Positions 8,298 to 52,510 of a stretch of DNA of 64,000 nucleotides are shown here, one piece after another. The notes under the pieces were generated by a model. It saw nothing but the letters and a program-made list of their open reading frames with translations, was not told where the DNA came from and searched no databases. The DNA lies in the NCBI RefSeq assembly GCF_036227605.1, contig NZ_CP109487.1:2108001-2172000 (forward strand), read 5' to 3'. Positions within the stretch are counted from its first letter, which is position 1. Each line of letters starts with the position of its first letter. Origin of the DNA: Streptomyces sp. NBC_01439 (GTDB lineage Bacteria; Actinomycetota; Actinomycetes; Streptomycetales; Streptomycetaceae). A program made the translations under genes and the position numbers.

Positions 8298-10121
8298 TTG
8301 CGCGAGATCACCGTCCCACCGGTCGTCACGGGCGCACCCGTCGGCGGCCTGGCCGACATCGTCTTCCAGCACGCCCGCGAGGAGCCGGACCGGGTGGTGC
8401 TCGGCCGGAAGACCGACGGGGTCTGGCGGGACGTGACGTCCCGGGAGCTGGCCGCCGAGGTGCTCGCGCTCGCCCGCGGACTGCTGGCCCAGGGGGTGCG
8501 GTTCGGCGACCGGGTCGCCGTCATGTCCCGCACCCGGTACGAGTGGACCCTCTTCGACTTCGCCCTGTGGGCGATCGGCGCCCAGCCCGTCCCGGTGTAT
8601 CCGACGTCCTCTGCCGATCAGGTGCACTGGATCCTCTTCGACTCCGACTGCACGGCCTGCGTGGTCGAGGACGAGGACCAGGCCATGACGGTCGGATCGG
8701 TCATCGACCGGCTCCCCCACCTGCGTCGGCTGTGGCAGCTCGACGCCGGGGCCGTGGACGAGATCGTCGCCGACGGCCGCGGGGTCGCCGAGGGCGTCGT
8801 GCACCGTCATCGGGGTGCCGTGACGCCCGGCGCGACCGCCACCGTCATCTACACCTCTGGGACGACGGGCCGGCCGAAGGGGTGCGTGCTCACGCACGCC
8901 AACTTCATGTACGAGACCGACACCCTGGTCAGCCGCTGGGAGTCGGTCTTCCGGGCCCGGCAGGGCGAGGAGCCGTCCACCCTGCTCTTCCTGCCGCTGG
9001 CGCACGTGTTCGGGCGGATGGTGGAGGTGGCCGCCGTCCGGGCCCGGGTGAAGCTGGGCCACCAACCGGCACTGGCGGCGGCCGAGTTGCTGCCGGACCT
9101 GGCCGCCTTCCGACCGACCTTCGTGCTGGGGGTCCCGCACGTCTTCGAGAAGGTCTTCGCGGGCGCCCGCCGCAAGGCGGAGGCGGAGGGGCGTACGGGC
9201 CCCTTCGACCGGGCGGTGGAGACGGCCGTGCGGTACGCGGAGGCGCGCGAGCGCAAGGCCTTCGGCGCCGGGCCGGGGCCCTCGGCCGCGCTGCGCATGG
9301 AGCACCAGCTCTTCGACCGGCTCGTCTACGGAAAGGTCCGCGAGGCCATGGGCGGCCGGGTGCGGCACGCCATGTCGGGCGGGTCGGCGATGTCCCGCCG
9401 CCTGGGGCTGTTCCTCGACGGTGCCGGTATCACGGTGTTCGAGGGGTACGGGCTAACCGAGTCGTGCGCGGCGGCCACCGCGAACCCGCCCGGTGCGACC
9501 AAGTACGGCACGGTGGGGCGACCGATCCCGGGCAGTACGGTGCACATCGCGGACGACGGGGAGGTCTGGCTGCACGGCAGCCACATCTTCTCCGGGTACC
9601 TCAACGACCCCCGGGCCACGGAAGCGGTCCTGCGCGGCGGCTGGCTGGCCACCGGCGACCTGGGCCGGCTGGACGCGGACGGGTACCTGACCATCACCGG
9701 GCGCAAGAAGGACATCCTGGTGACCTCCAACGGCAAGAGCGTCGCGCCCGCCGCGCTGGAGGAGCGGGTCCGTTCCCATCCGCTGGTGTCGCAGTGCGTG
9801 CTGGTGGGCAACGACCGGCCGTACATCGCGGCGCTGCTCACCCTGGACATGGACGGGATCGCCCACTGGCTGTCGATGCGCGGCCGGCCGCAGTTGCCGG
9901 CGGCGCAGCTGGTGGGTGACCCCGAGTTGACGGCGGAGGTGCGCCGGGCGGTGGTGGCCGCGAACACCCTGGTCTCACAGGCGGAGGCGATCCGCACCTT
10001 CCGGGTGCTGGGTGAGCAGTTCACGGAGGAGCGGGGTCTGCTGACCCCCTCGCTGAAGCTCAAGCGCCGGGCGATCGAGAAGGCGTACGCAAAGGAGGTC
10101 GCGGCCCTGTACTCCTCCTGA
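8298..10121 (+). CDS. AMP-forming long-chain acyl-CoA synthetase
   Basis: This adenylate-forming enzyme activates a carboxylic acid to its CoA thioester. It shows the A3 phosphate loop YTSGTTGRPKG (about residue 190), the YGLTES motif (A5, about 385), TGDLGRLDADGYL (A7/A8) and ITGRKKDILVTSNGKSV with the A10 lysine region after it. The length (607 aa) fits the FadD15/long-chain group. The TTG at 8298 is preferred because GAGAGGAG lies 7 bases before it and the conserved N-terminus (REITVPPVVTG) starts there; a GTG at 8220 is a possible longer start. The neighbouring Liv-type transporter suggests that imported acids are its substrate; that link is inferred. Confidence 0.88.
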   Translation: MREITVPPVVTGAPVGGLADIVFQHAREEPDRVVLGRKTDGVWRDVTSRELAAEVLALARGLLAQGVRFGDRVAVMSRTRYEWTLFDFALWAIGAQPVPVYPTSSADQVHWILFDSDCTACVVEDEDQAMTVGSVIDRLPHLRRLWQLDAGAVDEIVADGRGVAEGVVHRHRGAVTPGATATVIYTSGTTGRPKGCVLTHANFMYETDTLVSRWESVFRARQGEEPSTLLFLPLAHVFGRMVEVAAVRARVKLGHQPALAAAELLPDLAAFRPTFVLGVPHVFEKVFAGARRKAEAEGRTGPFDRAVETAVRYAEARERKAFGAGPGPSAALRMEHQLFDRLVYGKVREAMGGRVRHAMSGGSAMSRRLGLFLDGAGITVFEGYGLTESCAAATANPPGATKYGTVGRPIPGSTVHIADDGEVWLHGSHIFSGYLNDPRATEAVLRGGWLATGDLGRLDADGYLTITGRKKDILVTSNGKSVAPAALEERVRSHPLVSQCVLVGNDRPYIAALLTLDMDGIAHWLSMRGRPQLPAAQLVGDPELTAEVRRAVVAANTLVSQAEAIRTFRVLGEQFTEERGLLTPSLKLKRRAIEKAYAKEVAALYSS

Positions 10122-47183: not shown

Positions 47184-47942
47184 TCACCGGTTCCCGTAGT
47201 CCTCCACATAGGTGGCGATCAGCGCCAACAGGGCATCGGCCCGGTGGCGGTCCTCGCGCTGGTTGCGCAATGCCTCGTCGACGGCCCGCAGCCGGGCCAG
47301 GGCTGCCGGCACACCGTCCACCAGGTCGTCGACCACCGGATCGGTCACCAGGTCCAGGCACTCGGTGAACAGCCGACGGGTAGCAGGAGACGGCGGGGCG
47401 GGATCCGGATCTGCGTATCCGCTGGTCAGGTACCGCACGGGGTCGGTCAGGCTCCAGCCGACCACGACACCGCGCTGGACCAGGAGCGCTACGTCGGGTG
47501 CGATGCCGATGCGGGTCTCCAGCGGCTCGTCGAGGACGTCGAGGTCGCGCAGACAGGTCAGCACGGCGTCCCCCGGGGCGCGGCAGAAGTCCGTGGTCAC
47601 CTCCAGGCGGAAGTCCCGCACCTCGTCCGCGCGAAGACCGCCCGGGCGGACAAGGGGTTCGGCAGGGACGCGCGCGGAGTCCTCCTCGTCGACGACCCAC
47701 CTGGGCAACTGGAGCTCGGCGGCGACCAGTTCCCGGCTGAGCCGGTCGGAGCGGAGCTCGTCGGGCGTGTCCCACAGCCACTGCCCGCTGCCGAAGGTCC
47801 CGCCGCCGAACCGCTGCCCTTCCTCCACGTCCGCGTACGGCGCGACGCGCACGCAGAAGTCCCGGAAGTCGAAACGCGGGGCGATGTCCAGGGGCTCCCC
47901 CGCCACCGTCGCGGTCCAACCGTCATCGATGGTGAGTTTCAC
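47184..47942 (-). CDS. second immunity-like paralogue of the Rhs locus
   Basis: This 252-residue cytoplasmic protein has no signal peptide. It is a clear paralogue of the gene directly upstream (47939-48700): the last ~130 residues are almost identical (ALLVQxGxVVGWSLTDPVRYLT, TECLDLVTDPVVDDLVDGVPAALARLRA, RHRADALLALIATYVEDYGN), while the first ~100 differ at most positions. The GTG at 47942 overlaps the upstream stop (GTGA), so it is translated as part of the Rhs-toxin operon. I do not recognise the domain, but position after a toxin tip is typical of immunity proteins. Its diverged N-terminal half could match another toxin variant. Confidence 0.7.
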   Translation of the reverse strand: MKLTIDDGWTATVAGEPLDIAPRFDFRDFCVRVAPYADVEEGQRFGGGTFGSGQWLWDTPDELRSDRLSRELVAAELQLPRWVVDEEDSARVPAEPLVRPGGLRADEVRDFRLEVTTDFCRAPGDAVLTCLRDLDVLDEPLETRIGIAPDVALLVQRGVVVGWSLTDPVRYLTSGYADPDPAPPSPATRRLFTECLDLVTDPVVDDLVDGVPAALARLRAVDEALRNQREDRHRADALLALIATYVEDYGNR

Positions 47943-48700
47943 CCGTTCCCGTAGTCCTCCACATAGGTGGCGATCAGCGCCAGCAGGGCATCGGCCCGGT
48001 GCCGGTCCTCACGCTGCGCGCGCAGCGCCTCATCGGCGGCCCGCAGCCGCGCCAGGGCGGCCGGCACACCGTCCACCAGGTCGTCGACCACCGGATCGGT
48101 CACCAGGTCCAGGCACTCGGTGAGCAGCCGACGGGTGACAGCATGTGGCGGATTGGGGTCGGGGGCTGCGAATCCGGTGGTCAAATACCGGACCGGGTCG
48201 GTAAGGCTCCAGCCGACGACGGTGCCGTTCTGGACCAGGAGCGCCACGTCCGGCGCGATGCCGACGCAAGCGTCCAACGGCGCGTCGAGGACATCGAGGT
48301 CACGCAGACACGTCAGCACCGCATCCCCTGGAGAACGGCACAACACCGTACACGCCTCGTGTCGGAAGTCCCGGACCTCATCCGCACGCAGCCCGCCTGG
48401 ACGGAGCACGGGAAGGACGGGAACGCGTGAGGAACTTTCGCCATAAGCGGAGACGTACGGCATCTGGAACTCAGCACAGACCAGCTTCCGACTGTCCGGG
48501 CTGAACCGGAAGATGTCAGGCGTGTCCCATAGCCAGTCCTGGCTGCCGAAGGTGGACGTGAAGAAGCGCTCTCGTTCCTTCACATCCGAGTAGTGAGCGA
48601 TATCCACGGAGTCGCCTGTGAAGCGGGGAGTGAGGGGCATCGGGTCGTCTGTCACCGTGGCGGTCCAGTCGCCGTCGAAGGCCATTCGCATGCCGGACAT
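47939..48700 (-). CDS. first immunity-like protein of the Rhs locus
   Basis: This 253-residue acidic, cytoplasmic protein has its ATG (48700) four bases after the TAA of the Rhs toxin tip (48705), so the two are translationally coupled. Downstream the next paralogue overlaps it by four bases. The last 130 residues are nearly the same as in that paralogue, while residues 1-110 (TATVTDDPMPLTPRFTGDSV) are different. Its first part has slightly less GC-rich codon use (GCT TAT GGC GAA AGT) than the surroundings, as in recently acquired sequence. No immunity family can be named from memory; the call rests on gene order, size and charge. Starts at 48691 and 48685 are also in frame. Confidence 0.7.
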   Translation of the reverse strand: MSGMRMAFDGDWTATVTDDPMPLTPRFTGDSVDIAHYSDVKERERFFTSTFGSQDWLWDTPDIFRFSPDSRKLVCAEFQMPYVSAYGESSSRVPVLPVLRPGGLRADEVRDFRHEACTVLCRSPGDAVLTCLRDLDVLDAPLDACVGIAPDVALLVQNGTVVGWSLTDPVRYLTTGFAAPDPNPPHAVTRRLLTECLDLVTDPVVDDLVDGVPAALARLRAADEALRAQREDRHRADALLALIATYVEDYGNG

Positions 48701-48704
48701 CACC

Positions 48705-51420
48705 TTATCTGATCTGCTTTGCGGGAGGGTGGAATCCCTCCTTGGTAGGGATCCTGCCTTCCACGATGGCTTCATGGGTAACCGGCCCACCGGGGTCCGT
48801 AGGACTGCCGCCGAGCGCCGTCACTCCGGATCCTCCCTTGGTGCCTGACGGTCCGTACGCTGTGATCGCCTGGCCCTGGACCGGGCCGGGTCCATGAATC
48901 ACGACGACGTCCTCGCCTTGCCGGAAGATGAGCTTCAGGTTGGGCATCTGGTATACGGCGTCCGGTTGCTTCAGGATCTCCACGACCCGTTCGTCGGGGA
49001 AGTCGTGCCTGTCGCCCCCGTGGTACTTGGGATGTCTCCTGAATCCGCCGTTCTGTGCGTCCTCGATGATTTCGGCTACGACCTTGTCGGTCCGCCTTTG
49101 GGCCTTCTCCTCCTTCGTGTACTTGGGCGCCAGACCCAGCGGGTCGCATCCGCTGTGCGGGTTGCCCACGTACGCGACGGGGTTCGGGGCGGGAGCCAGC
49201 CCGAGGGGGTCCGGGGAGGTGTAGCGGCCGGTCTCGGGGTCGTAGTGACGGAAGAGGTTGTAGTGGAGGCCGGTCTCGGGGTCGTAGTACTGGCCGGGGA
49301 AGCGCAGGGGGATGTACGTGCGGCTCTCGCGGGCCCAGGCGGTGGTGCCCCACAAAGTCGCCCGGGAGCGCCAGGCGATGTCGCCGGACTCGTCGATCAG
49401 TTCGGTGGGAGTGCCGACGAGGTCCGTGGCGATGGCGAAGAAGCGGCGGTCGATCTCCTCCTGGCGGTCGTCGGCCGTGAGGATCCGCTCGGTCTGGGCC
49501 AGGGGTACGGCGCCGCGGTGGTCCCAGGTGAGGGCGATCGTGTGCGGGGTGTCGGGCTGCTGGCTGATCTGTTCGCACAGGGTCATTCCGTCCCAGGTGA
49601 ACCGGACCTCCTCGACCACGCTGTCGCCGTCCGCCGACTGGCGCTGCTTCGCGACGCGGCGGCCGAGCGGATCGTAGCGGTACCTCCACACGGTCCCGTC
49701 GGGGGTGGTCACGGAGGTGAGGCGATTCTCCGTGTCCCACGCGTACCGCCAGGTGTCCGGCTTCCGGGAGAGCCGGGTCTTCTGCCGGAGGGTGACCCGG
49801 CCGAGGGCGTCGTACTCGAAACGGACGTCTCCGGCGCGGGTGACGTTGGTACCGGTGTAGGTGCGCGATCCGGTGGCTTCGCCGCCGGGGTGGTCGGCCG
49901 GCCAGGACGCCCAGGTCTGGTTGCCGGTGTTGTCGTAGGCGTACCGCTCCGTCCAGCCCTGGGCTTGGACGGCGGTGACCCGGCCCGCCCGGTCGAGGTC
50001 GAACGTGCGGGTGCCCGACAGCCGGTCCGCGACGGATATCAGGTGGCCGTCGGCGCGGTAGCCGTAGGTGCGGCTGTTGACCGCGCGGTGCCGCCCAGCG
50101 CATCGACGCGCGCGGCCAGCCGACCCGCTCCGTCCAACTGGTAGGTGAGGGTGCGGCCGTCGAAGTCGGTCTCGGAAACTATGTTGTCAGCGGCGTCGTA
50201 CTCGTAGGTCCAAGCTCGCCCGTGCGGATCGGTGACCCGGGTGAGGCGTAGCGCGGCGTCGTGCTCGAACTCGTAGCGCGCGCCATCGGGTCCGGTGCGG
50301 GATGTCGGCAGGTCGAAGTGGGTGTACTCGAAACGGGTGATCCCACCGGAGGCGTCGGTGCGGGCGAGCAGGTTGCCCTCGCCGTCGTAGGTCCACAGCT
50401 CGGTGGCGCCGTCGGGGCCGGTGCGCCGGGCGAGCTGCCCGTCGGCGTGCCACTCCAGGTGGGTGACACCGCCCACCGGATCGGTAATGCGGACCGGCCG
50501 GCCGAGGCCGTCCCGCTCCGTGCGGGTGAGGGCACCGGCCTAGTCGGTCACCTCCACGGGCAGCCCCGCGGCGTCGCACACCACGTGGGTCGTGGCTCCT
50601 ACCGCATCGGTGAGCGAGGTGAGCCGGCCGGCCTGGTCGTAGGTGTAGCGGGTCGTGAAGCCCGCCGGGTCGGTGACCGCCGTGCGGTTTCCGCGTTCGT
50701 CGTACTCGTGGAGCATGCGGGAACCGTCGGGCCCGAAGACTTGCTCGGGCAGACCGAACGGGCCGCGCACGGTGTGCAGTTCACTTCCGTCGGGGCGGAC
50801 GGCGCGGACGAGGCGGCCCTCCTCGTCGTAGGAGAAGACGGTGGTGAGACCCAGCGGGTCGGTGCGGGACAACAGGTTGCCGCGCGGGTCGTACGCATGG
50901 CGGGTGGTGTGGCCGAGCGGGTCGGTGACGGCCAGGAGCTTGCAGCCGGGGCCGAACAGGTGGTGGGTCGCGTGCCCGTCCGGTGTGGTCAGCGTGGTGG
51001 TGTGGTGACCCCTTTCCGGGTCCGGTTCGCTGTAGGACAGGGCGATCTGGATGTGACCGGCCTCGCCGCCCTCCGCCACGACTCGGTCGCGGTCGTCGTA
51101 GACGTAGTCGTAGCGGCTTCCGTTGGAATCGATCCAGGCGGTGACGCGGCGCCGGTCATCGTAGACGAAGGCGGTGGTGGCACCTGACGGCTTGGTGACC
51201 GTGGTGAGGTTGCCGTCCTCGTAGCCGTAGTTCATCAAGGGCAGGTCGGCGCCGCCTGGGCCTGCGCCGGCCAAGGACAGGGCGGTGACCAGGCCGTCAG
51301 CGACGGACAGCGTCATGTGGTGGCCTGCCGAGTGGACCAGACCCAGCGGCACGCCGTCCTCGTCGCGGTCGATGTCGATGCTGTGACCGTTGCGTTCGGA
51401 TATGCGGGACGGTTGGACAT
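48705..51420 (-). pseudogene. Rhs/YD-repeat polymorphic toxin, decayed core with intact C-terminal toxin tip
   Basis: Continuous YD-repeat sequence (YDxxGR, TYGYRADGHL, YDPRGNLLSRTDPLG) covers about 900 codons. It has three lesions: at about 51420 the 5' part is lost and joined to a SseB-like gene; at 50540-50542 an in-frame TAG splits EVTD and AGALTRTERDG; and around 50082-50098 one base is missing, moving to a new frame at AVNSRTYGYRADG. From there to the stop at 48705 the frame is open for about 460 codons. It includes FPGQYYDPETGLHYNLFRHYDPETGRY, the DPLGLAP core end (about 49125) and a ~140-residue tip with HPKYHGGDRHDFPDE, YGPSG and GGSPTDPGGPVTHEAI. The tip's family is not named. The lesions could be sequencing errors. 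Confidence 0.78.
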
Positions 51421-51708
51421 CGGCACCACCGCGTCCAGCAGCCGCGCGCCGAGCATCGTCAGGTAGGGCCTCTCGCGGTCGCCCTCACCACGCGCCTGTG
51501 CGAACCGGAACAGTGCTTCCTCGTCCGTGAACACGTACAGCCAGCGGATCCCGCCAGAGACGGCGCTCATCACACCACCAGCGGCCTTCGCATCGGCACC
51601 GGCGTCGGCACGCGGGACGAGTAGGGCCGCGCGGCGGAACTCGCCCACTAGGCGCCTCGGATCCCCCAGGCCTGCACGGTATGCGGATATCTCTGCGGTC
51701 AGTCCCAC
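51313..51708 (-). pseudogene. SseB-like protein, 3' truncated by fusion to Rhs
   Basis: From a GTG at 51708 (GGGGAGGGG site) the frame encodes GLTAEISAYRAGLGDPRRLVGEFRRAALLVP and GGIRWLYVFTDEEALFRFAQA, then GARLLDAVVP. This is the SseB-like domain that often precedes Rhs or T7S effectors in Streptomyces. After DAVVP (about 51420) the same frame turns into meaningless sequence to a stop at 51313, while the frame beside it becomes Rhs (SRISERNGHSIDIDRDEDG). The rest of the SseB domain and the start of the Rhs core are missing, which suggests one deletion. Confidence 0.65.
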
Positions 51709-51817
51709 GACGTCGGGTCCCCTCCCCGTGATGCACACGCAAAGAGGCAACAGTAACTGGGCCGGCGCATCGCCCTGATGTCAGGCCGGGTCGTGTGGCA
51801 GCATCGGCAGGGTGATC

Positions 51818-52510
51818 ATGGACGAGACGAGGATGAGCCTGCTCCGTGGGGCCGCGCTGAACAACGCCGCCTGGTGCGACGCGGTGTGTCGTGCGCACGG
51901 GTTGTCGCCGCGGTACGACGGCGAGCAGCTCTGGTCCAGTGCGCGGCGGACTCCGCCGATGTATCCCGATGCCGTGACGCTGGAACCGGGCGTACCGGCG
52001 CGGAACGTGGTCCGGGGGGTCGACGCCGCCTCCGCCGGCTGTTCGGTGAAGGACAGCTTCGCCGACCTGGACCTGGCCGGGGACGGCTTCGAGGTGCTGT
52101 TCGAGGCGCAGTGGATCCATCGGCCCGCCGGGGCGCCGCTCCCCGAGGCGGAGGGGGAAGCGGCCGGGCTGGAGTGGTCCGAGGTCTCGGGCGCCGAGGA
52201 GCTGGCGGACTGGGAGGGCGCCGGGGGCGGCGGGCCGTTCCGGGCGGGCCTGCTCGGCGAGGGGATCGTCTTCCTGGCCGGGCGCGCGGGCAGCCGGATC
52301 GTCGCCGGGGCCGTCGTGAGCACCGGTGGGGGCGTGGTCGGCGTGTCCAACCTGTTCGGCGCCGCCTGGGCGGGTGTCCTCGGCGCGGTCGCCGACCGCT
52401 GGCCGGAGCTGGACGTGGTCGGCTACGAGCACGGGGAGGACCTGGACGCGGCGGTCCGGGCCGGGTTCACGCCCATCGGTCCGCTGCGGGTCTGGCTATT
52501 TGCCCAGTGA
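51818..52510 (+). CDS. hypothetical protein, possible GNAT-like fold, 230 aa
   Basis: The protein has a long acidic first half (NNAAWCDAVCRAHGL, YPDAVTLEPGV) and a C-terminal half with VVSTGGGVVGVSNLF, AVADRWPELDVVGYEHGEDLDAAVRAGFTPIGPLRVWL. That order of strands and the last AGFxPIGxLRV resemble the end of GNAT acetyltransferases (…GFxxxGxxx), but the acetyl-CoA loop is not clear. I would leave it as hypothetical. Start 51818 is an ATG with CAGGG upstream; GTG 51812 is possible. It is divergent from the SseB remnant. Confidence 0.6.
   Translation: MDETRMSLLRGAALNNAAWCDAVCRAHGLSPRYDGEQLWSSARRTPPMYPDAVTLEPGVPARNVVRGVDAASAGCSVKDSFADLDLAGDGFEVLFEAQWIHRPAGAPLPEAEGEAAGLEWSEVSGAEELADWEGAGGGGPFRAGLLGEGIVFLAGRAGSRIVAGAVVSTGGGVVGVSNLFGAAWAGVLGAVADRWPELDVVGYEHGEDLDAAVRAGFTPIGPLRVWLFAQ

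Follow-up and report, generated by a model that had tools for sequence, protein, structure and literature searches.

An Rhs toxin gene of the T7SS type broken in place beside whole immunity-like genes in a Streptomyces genome

In Salmonella and other enterobacteria, orphan rhs-CT/rhsI modules are found downstream of a functional main rhs gene and have 522 bp in common with it at 95% identity, an overlap that underlies the orphan-tip rearrangement in Salmonella (PMC3967940). The orphan Rhs immunity proteins of Serratia belong to a T6SS; an intact effector is present at the locus, and protection has been shown (PMC10539506). The T7SS immunity genes esaG and tipC, which occur in tandem, answer toxins of other families in Firmicutes, and their recombination has been tested in many strains (PMC9484751). 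A fourth described group comprises the T7SS-secreted Rhs toxins of Streptomyces ('putative T7SS-secreted protein', PF21725 + PF20148 + PF05593). The locus analysed here shares with intact members of this last group the core, the boundary at DPLGL, the family of the tip and the adjoining immunity-like gene, but roughly 670 of the 1577 residues, the signal and DUF6531 among them, have been deleted from it; it also carries a stop in the core and is not expressible as one protein.

The locus lies in a stretch of 64,000 nucleotides (the window) from Streptomyces sp. NBC_01439, whose 9.58-Mb genome is a single contig (G000) and Streptomyces-like in its protein relatives, and the pieces of its rhs gene run on the minus strand from 51406 to 48705. 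Like the enterobacterial orphan modules (PMC3967940), it has an open tip that is devoid of recognised start and export signals and is linked to an immunity gene; unlike them, it is the main gene itself that is broken, and no near-identical partner was found in the genome, where the best other core copy is 71% identical over 0.9 kb and the tip is found once. The possibility that the locus is an orphan displaced to a place behind a functional main gene was also considered and rejected, as no other RHS_repeat match was found near the locus; the window locus is the main rhs gene itself, broken in place. With the Serratia case (PMC10539506) it shares immunity genes that have no working cognate toxin and the exchange of tip-immunity units by recombination in the core, but the system is not a T6SS, an intact effector is absent, and protection, demonstrated there, is here inferred. 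With esaG and tipC (PMC9484751) it shares tandem paralogues (imm1 and imm2) with a 3' block of high similarity, of the kind that serves recombination, although recombination is seen here in one strain pair. Both the parts and their behaviour are of known kinds, Rhs tip exchange and orphan immunity (PMC3967940, PMC10539506).

Read in the direction of transcription, the first feature is the 5' remnant of an SseB-like gene (51410..51750, minus strand), recognised by alignment to the related locus L040 and by a PF07179 match under the cut-off (E = 0.0072; 17 bits versus 21 bits). It is cut by a deletion (D1) that, by comparison with L040, removed about 2292 bp and whose junction (51407..51410) has a 4-bp overlap. 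The first remaining block of YD repeats follows (50543..51406, minus strand), with 95.3% ungapped DNA identity to L040 and a core reading frame (51352-50540, minus strand) that matches RHS_repeat in six stretches (E = 3.7e-40 for 51352-50543) and ends at an in-frame TAG (50540..50542), which polarisation assigned to the lineage of the window. The second block (50087..50539, minus strand) continues in the frame of the first up to another deletion (D2; 427 bp by comparison with L040), with its junction at 50087 and a 1-bp overlap. The last block (49131..50086, minus strand) extends to DPLGL and includes the RHS-associated core motif (PF03527, E = 5.4e-9; Rhs_assc_core TIGR03696 in 49712-48708, E = 4.2e-22), and after DPLGL begins the C-terminal tip of 141 aa (48708..49130, minus strand), a predicted alpha+beta domain. 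The repeats, the core motif and a variable tip beyond DPxGL with an adjoining immunity-like gene are therefore all present, and one continuous reading frame is absent. Downstream, imm1 (47939..48691, minus strand) is a whole gene whose likely start is the ATG at 48691, with AGGTGA at 8 nt, and the start of its paralogue imm2 (47184..47942, minus strand; 70% identical protein) overlaps its stop and has GGAGG at 13 nt. An arginase-family gene (47111-46212, minus strand; PF00491) lies 3' of the two. The other flank of the island is formed by the up232 gene (51812-52507, plus strand), whose 232-aa protein has no match in Pfam or NCBIfam.

Among 27 tip-encoding loci in named genomes, one locus, L040 of Streptomyces sp. 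NBC_01214, is syntenic with the window, and its up232 and arginase genes on the two flanks are 82.9 and 99.3% identical. Between them it holds an SseB-like gene (whole, E = 3.5e-4, 21.2 bits versus a cut-off of 21), then an ORF of 188 aa, then an uninterrupted rhs gene of 1577 codons, whose product scores with all three families: PF21725 (T7SS signal, residues 12-254, E = 1.9e-79), DUF6531 (residues 401-472, E = 2.3e-19) and RHS_repeat (E = 2.2e-89). In the DNA alignment, window 54000-51407 corresponds to L040 2364-5002 and window 51410-50087 to L040 7291-8614, the latter gap-free at 95.3%, and the alignment resumes from 50087 at L040 9041. Lost to D1 are the 3' part of the SseB-like gene, the 188-aa ORF and the first ~529 residues of Rhs, and with them the T7SS signal and DUF6531, which are present in L040 and absent from the window. 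Outside the two junctions the core is 87-99% identical to L040 in 100-base windows, and the short overlaps at the junctions would be consistent with illegitimate end joining. A second block of variation lies upstream of rhs at 51869-51468, around where the SseB-like gene begins and over its body; it matches L040 at only 72-78%, whereas the sequence on either side reaches 92-95%.

The core conclusions rest on this DNA comparison and on the in-frame protein pieces, and they bear out much of a sequence-only reading of the window made beforehand, which had called for comparison with the same locus in relatives. It described a decayed gene for an Rhs polymorphic toxin, in which the tip is uninterrupted and immunity-like genes are coupled to it, and this is supported. 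Its TAG was found in frame on the minus strand (50542..50540), and the 5' truncation it proposed proved to be the deletion of ~2.29 kb that fuses the SseB-like remnant to the middle of Rhs. The frame loss that it placed at about 50082-50098 is real, but it is caused by D2 and not by one base: the sequence at 50087 continues at L040 9041, which contradicts a one-base error. From its domain content, the toxin gene cannot be made as one protein.

A DNA search with the arginase gene covered 392 genomes, from which the 16 nearest loci were taken. Only one of them (G251, probably the genome of L040) carries rhs, tip or imm at the site, and the other 15 gave no rhs, tip or imm match at E <= 1e-4. In 13 of these 15 island-less loci, a match to up232 adjoins the arginase gene (that of L075 covers only 30 residues), and two of the 15 genomes, G070 and G107, have imm genes elsewhere in the genome. 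In G063, a 92-bp DNA match to the 3' end of imm lies at the site (L063 13238-13329) with no Rhs island, so this genome probably once had the island. An acetyltransferase-like ORF, its family read from the letters, adjoins that match. The window genome itself has a T7SS EccC gene (G000:C1:3063915-3065627, 796 bits versus a cut-off of 347) and, in a genome-wide search, no match to T7SS_signal (PF21725); the same search gave two matches in each of three relatives and none in 14 standard control genomes.

The 141-aa tip belongs to no Pfam or NCBIfam family. Its structure model is confident and has a weak likeness to RNases of the colicin E5/D type. Colicin E5, colicin D, CdiA-CT and RelE are RNases of the BECR fold (PMC3482391), for which the tip is a candidate; it is probably an RNase. 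In the tip alignment (A1), H37, D74, T90, Y92 and S101 are invariant and R70 is nearly so, which makes them candidate catalytic residues only. The family comprises 150 long proteins at E <= 1e-10; among the 120 of them listed, about 110 have the T7SS signal by hand count. There are also 19 short proteins of 188-586 aa, including that of the window, and many are on contigs of 1-3 kb. One short form, in Streptomyces somaliensis (L035 9782-10435), is a tip reading frame of 218 codons that includes only ~70 residues of the core end and has an imm gene behind it.

The gene imm1 belongs to a conserved family, with 524 relatives at E <= 0.001 (120 of them listed), and both imm1 and imm2 are free of stops and frameshifts. 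An imm homologue stands directly behind the tip, starting 4-95 bp past its last codon, in 31 of 32 other loci; the 32nd (L022 of G029, a 30% tip match) gave no imm hit and is excluded from the 31. Three of the 31 run off their contig, and 23 of the remaining 28 have an open rhs frame of at least 1500 codons; the frames of the other five (757, 1073, 218, 433 and 123 codons) may owe their length to draft or contig-end effects. Across 150 genomes of the genus, the imm family was found in 17 besides the window genome (18 with it). Directly upstream of imm, 11 of the 17 have a full tip and core end, four (G077, G118, G140 and G158) a cut tip or a tip without the core end, and two (G155 and G160) no detected tip; in G155 a core end lies about 1.2 kb upstream of imm and may carry another tip. 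The imm copy of G160 and the second copy of G086 contain an internal TGA. To judge from these genomes, immunity without a complete toxin has been seen more than once, but immunity decays too. The structure model of imm1 is poor (pLDDT 53.8). In the window, a whole immunity-like gene is found with its cognate toxin broken and no second tip in the genome, and from their position imm1 and imm2 most likely protect against this tip type coming from relatives. The tip and imm families, having no Pfam or NCBIfam names, are new and come here with a clean case. A different arrangement occurs in L044 (11832-13877), where a fragmented second rhs core and a distant imm homologue (31%) lie behind an intact rhs-imm unit.

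Identity between the window and L040, measured in 100-base windows, stays at 87-99% up to about 49100 and drops to 60-70% over the tip and the 5' half of imm1. The rest of imm1 is 69-78% identical and the body of imm2 72-83%, and on the arginase side the value is 89-99%, save for the last 22 aligned bases, of which 17 match. By this pattern the tip-immunity unit at this site differs between the two strains, and the break at DPLGL indicates that tips are exchanged by recombination. The tail of imm1 (48056-47957) matches, at 94% identity, an imm fragment between the two imm genes of L040, which looks like the scar of an earlier unit, and imm1 and imm2 are 82-96% identical to each other in their last 200 bp. 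The immunity tandem thus seems to keep pieces of earlier exchanges.

The age of the decay was approached through 754 core codons, in which the differences between the window and L040 were polarised with 12 other Rhs genes as outgroup (one of them, L025, being only an 890-codon piece). The window lineage acquired 18 nonsynonymous changes, one stop and 24 synonymous changes, and the L040 lineage 20 nonsynonymous and 32 synonymous changes, with 19 further changes unclear. The ratios of nonsynonymous-plus-stop to synonymous changes are alike (19:24 versus 20:32, P-value = 0.68, Fisher test), so constraint probably still acted on the gene when most of the changes in the window arose, and the decay seems to be recent. 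If so, the tip has had little time to close, and the survival of imm may carry no meaning; no relative close enough to test selection after the breakage was found. The window tip departs from five columns common to 90% of the other tips (0-4 departures in 28 of them; 20 and 24 in the distant L020 and L021), and its terminal branch (0.327) is the second longest after that of L021. Such departures and such a branch would fit loosened constraint or merely an unsampled lineage.

The last ~460 codons are open, as had been claimed: 460 codons separate the break at 50087 from the stop codon (48707-48705), and the frame measures 493 from stop to stop. Taken as a sign of function, this openness is worth little, because other frames in the GC-rich DNA are about as open; over the tip stretch, two further frames contain no stop for 468 and 431 codons, and stop-free stretches of at least 400 codons number 60 in the 64-kb window, the tip frame included. 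Six in-frame start codons would cover the whole tip (49712, 49691, 49619, 49586, 49355 and 49169), and none of the six has a Shine-Dalgarno match of at least 4 nt within 18 nt upstream. Five of the six are start codons in the intact L040 gene as well (four identical, one GTG/ATG), where the GTG at 9509 has the match GGTGA, so the breakage gained little for internal initiation. Leaderless starts are also used in Streptomyces, and leaderless or weak starts of the tip are compatible with the Shine-Dalgarno result, which is not proof. We infer that nothing is translated from the broken toxin gene; an internal product, if any, would by its domain content have no export signal.

We consider it probable that a T7SS-type Rhs toxin gene died in place and left its immunity genes whole. 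The island between up232 and the arginase gene would once have held an exported Rhs polymorphic toxin, in the order SseB-like gene, 188-aa ORF, rhs (T7SS signal, DUF6531, YD shell and tip) and immunity genes; comparison with the syntenic intact gene shows that the toxin gene was killed by two deletions and a nonsense mutation. The genes imm1 and imm2 remain whole and most likely guard against the same tip type delivered by relatives, and tip-immunity units would be swapped among strains by recombination, their identity breaking off sharply at DPLGL. Neutral decay of the whole island, with imm genes that merely have not been hit so far and protect against nothing that matters, is unlikely but deserves to be taken seriously: the polarised changes point to recent decay, G063 retains only its 92-bp imm tail, 15 of the 16 nearest loci have no rhs, and imm copies with TGA exist. 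It sits less well with the intactness of imm1 and imm2, with the good ribosome site of imm1, and with the cut, core-less or undetected tip in front of imm in six of 17 genomes, a count that includes G155, with a possible other tip, and G160, with its TGA.

That the orphan tip is retained as a toxin reservoir for recombination onto a working Rhs core, as the sequence-only reading had suggested, is a decidedly improbable alternative. Strain-to-strain exchange at the locus is indicated by the identity break at DPLGL, so a reservoir at population level is conceivable, the core is similar enough to NBC_01214 for exchange with such strains, and other short tips of the family exist (the 218 codons of L035, the 19 short proteins). 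Within its own genome, however, the tip has no partner, there being one tip, a best core of 71% over 0.9 kb, far below the 522 bp at 95% of the Salmonella rearrangement, and no protein with the T7SS signal, and its five departures and long terminal branch fit loosened constraint or an unsampled lineage. The same reading had also proposed expression of the tip from internal starts; such expression, with the tip active within the cell and imm1 serving as its antitoxin, is very improbable, for the open 460 codons and six start codons have to be set against the lack of Shine-Dalgarno matches, where imm1 has AGGTGA, the sharing of five starts with the intact gene and the openness of the other frames. 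Least credible of all is an error of assembly or sequencing. A single TAG could be a read error, but the two deletions are clean-ended and lie in a one-contig genome, and 2.2 kb of core aligned to L040 contains no small indels.

Beyond the favoured reading of a gene that died in place, it is possible, though doubtful, that toxin loss with kept immunity is a recurrent and selected end state of Streptomyces T7SS-Rhs islands, leaving an immunity-only operon that would be read from the remaining SseB-like promoter and directed against an unnamed colicin-E5/D-like RNase family by an unnamed immunity family. Rhs toxins of this type are probably a weapon of soil bacteria against each other, and the strain looks disarmed and is perhaps shielded still, a situation of a known kind. 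Together with NBC_01214, the window genome forms a clean before-and-after pair for the swap or loss of a T7SS-Rhs tip with persisting immunity genes, and in tip and imm families that have no Pfam or NCBIfam names the pairing of toxin and immunity is directly testable.
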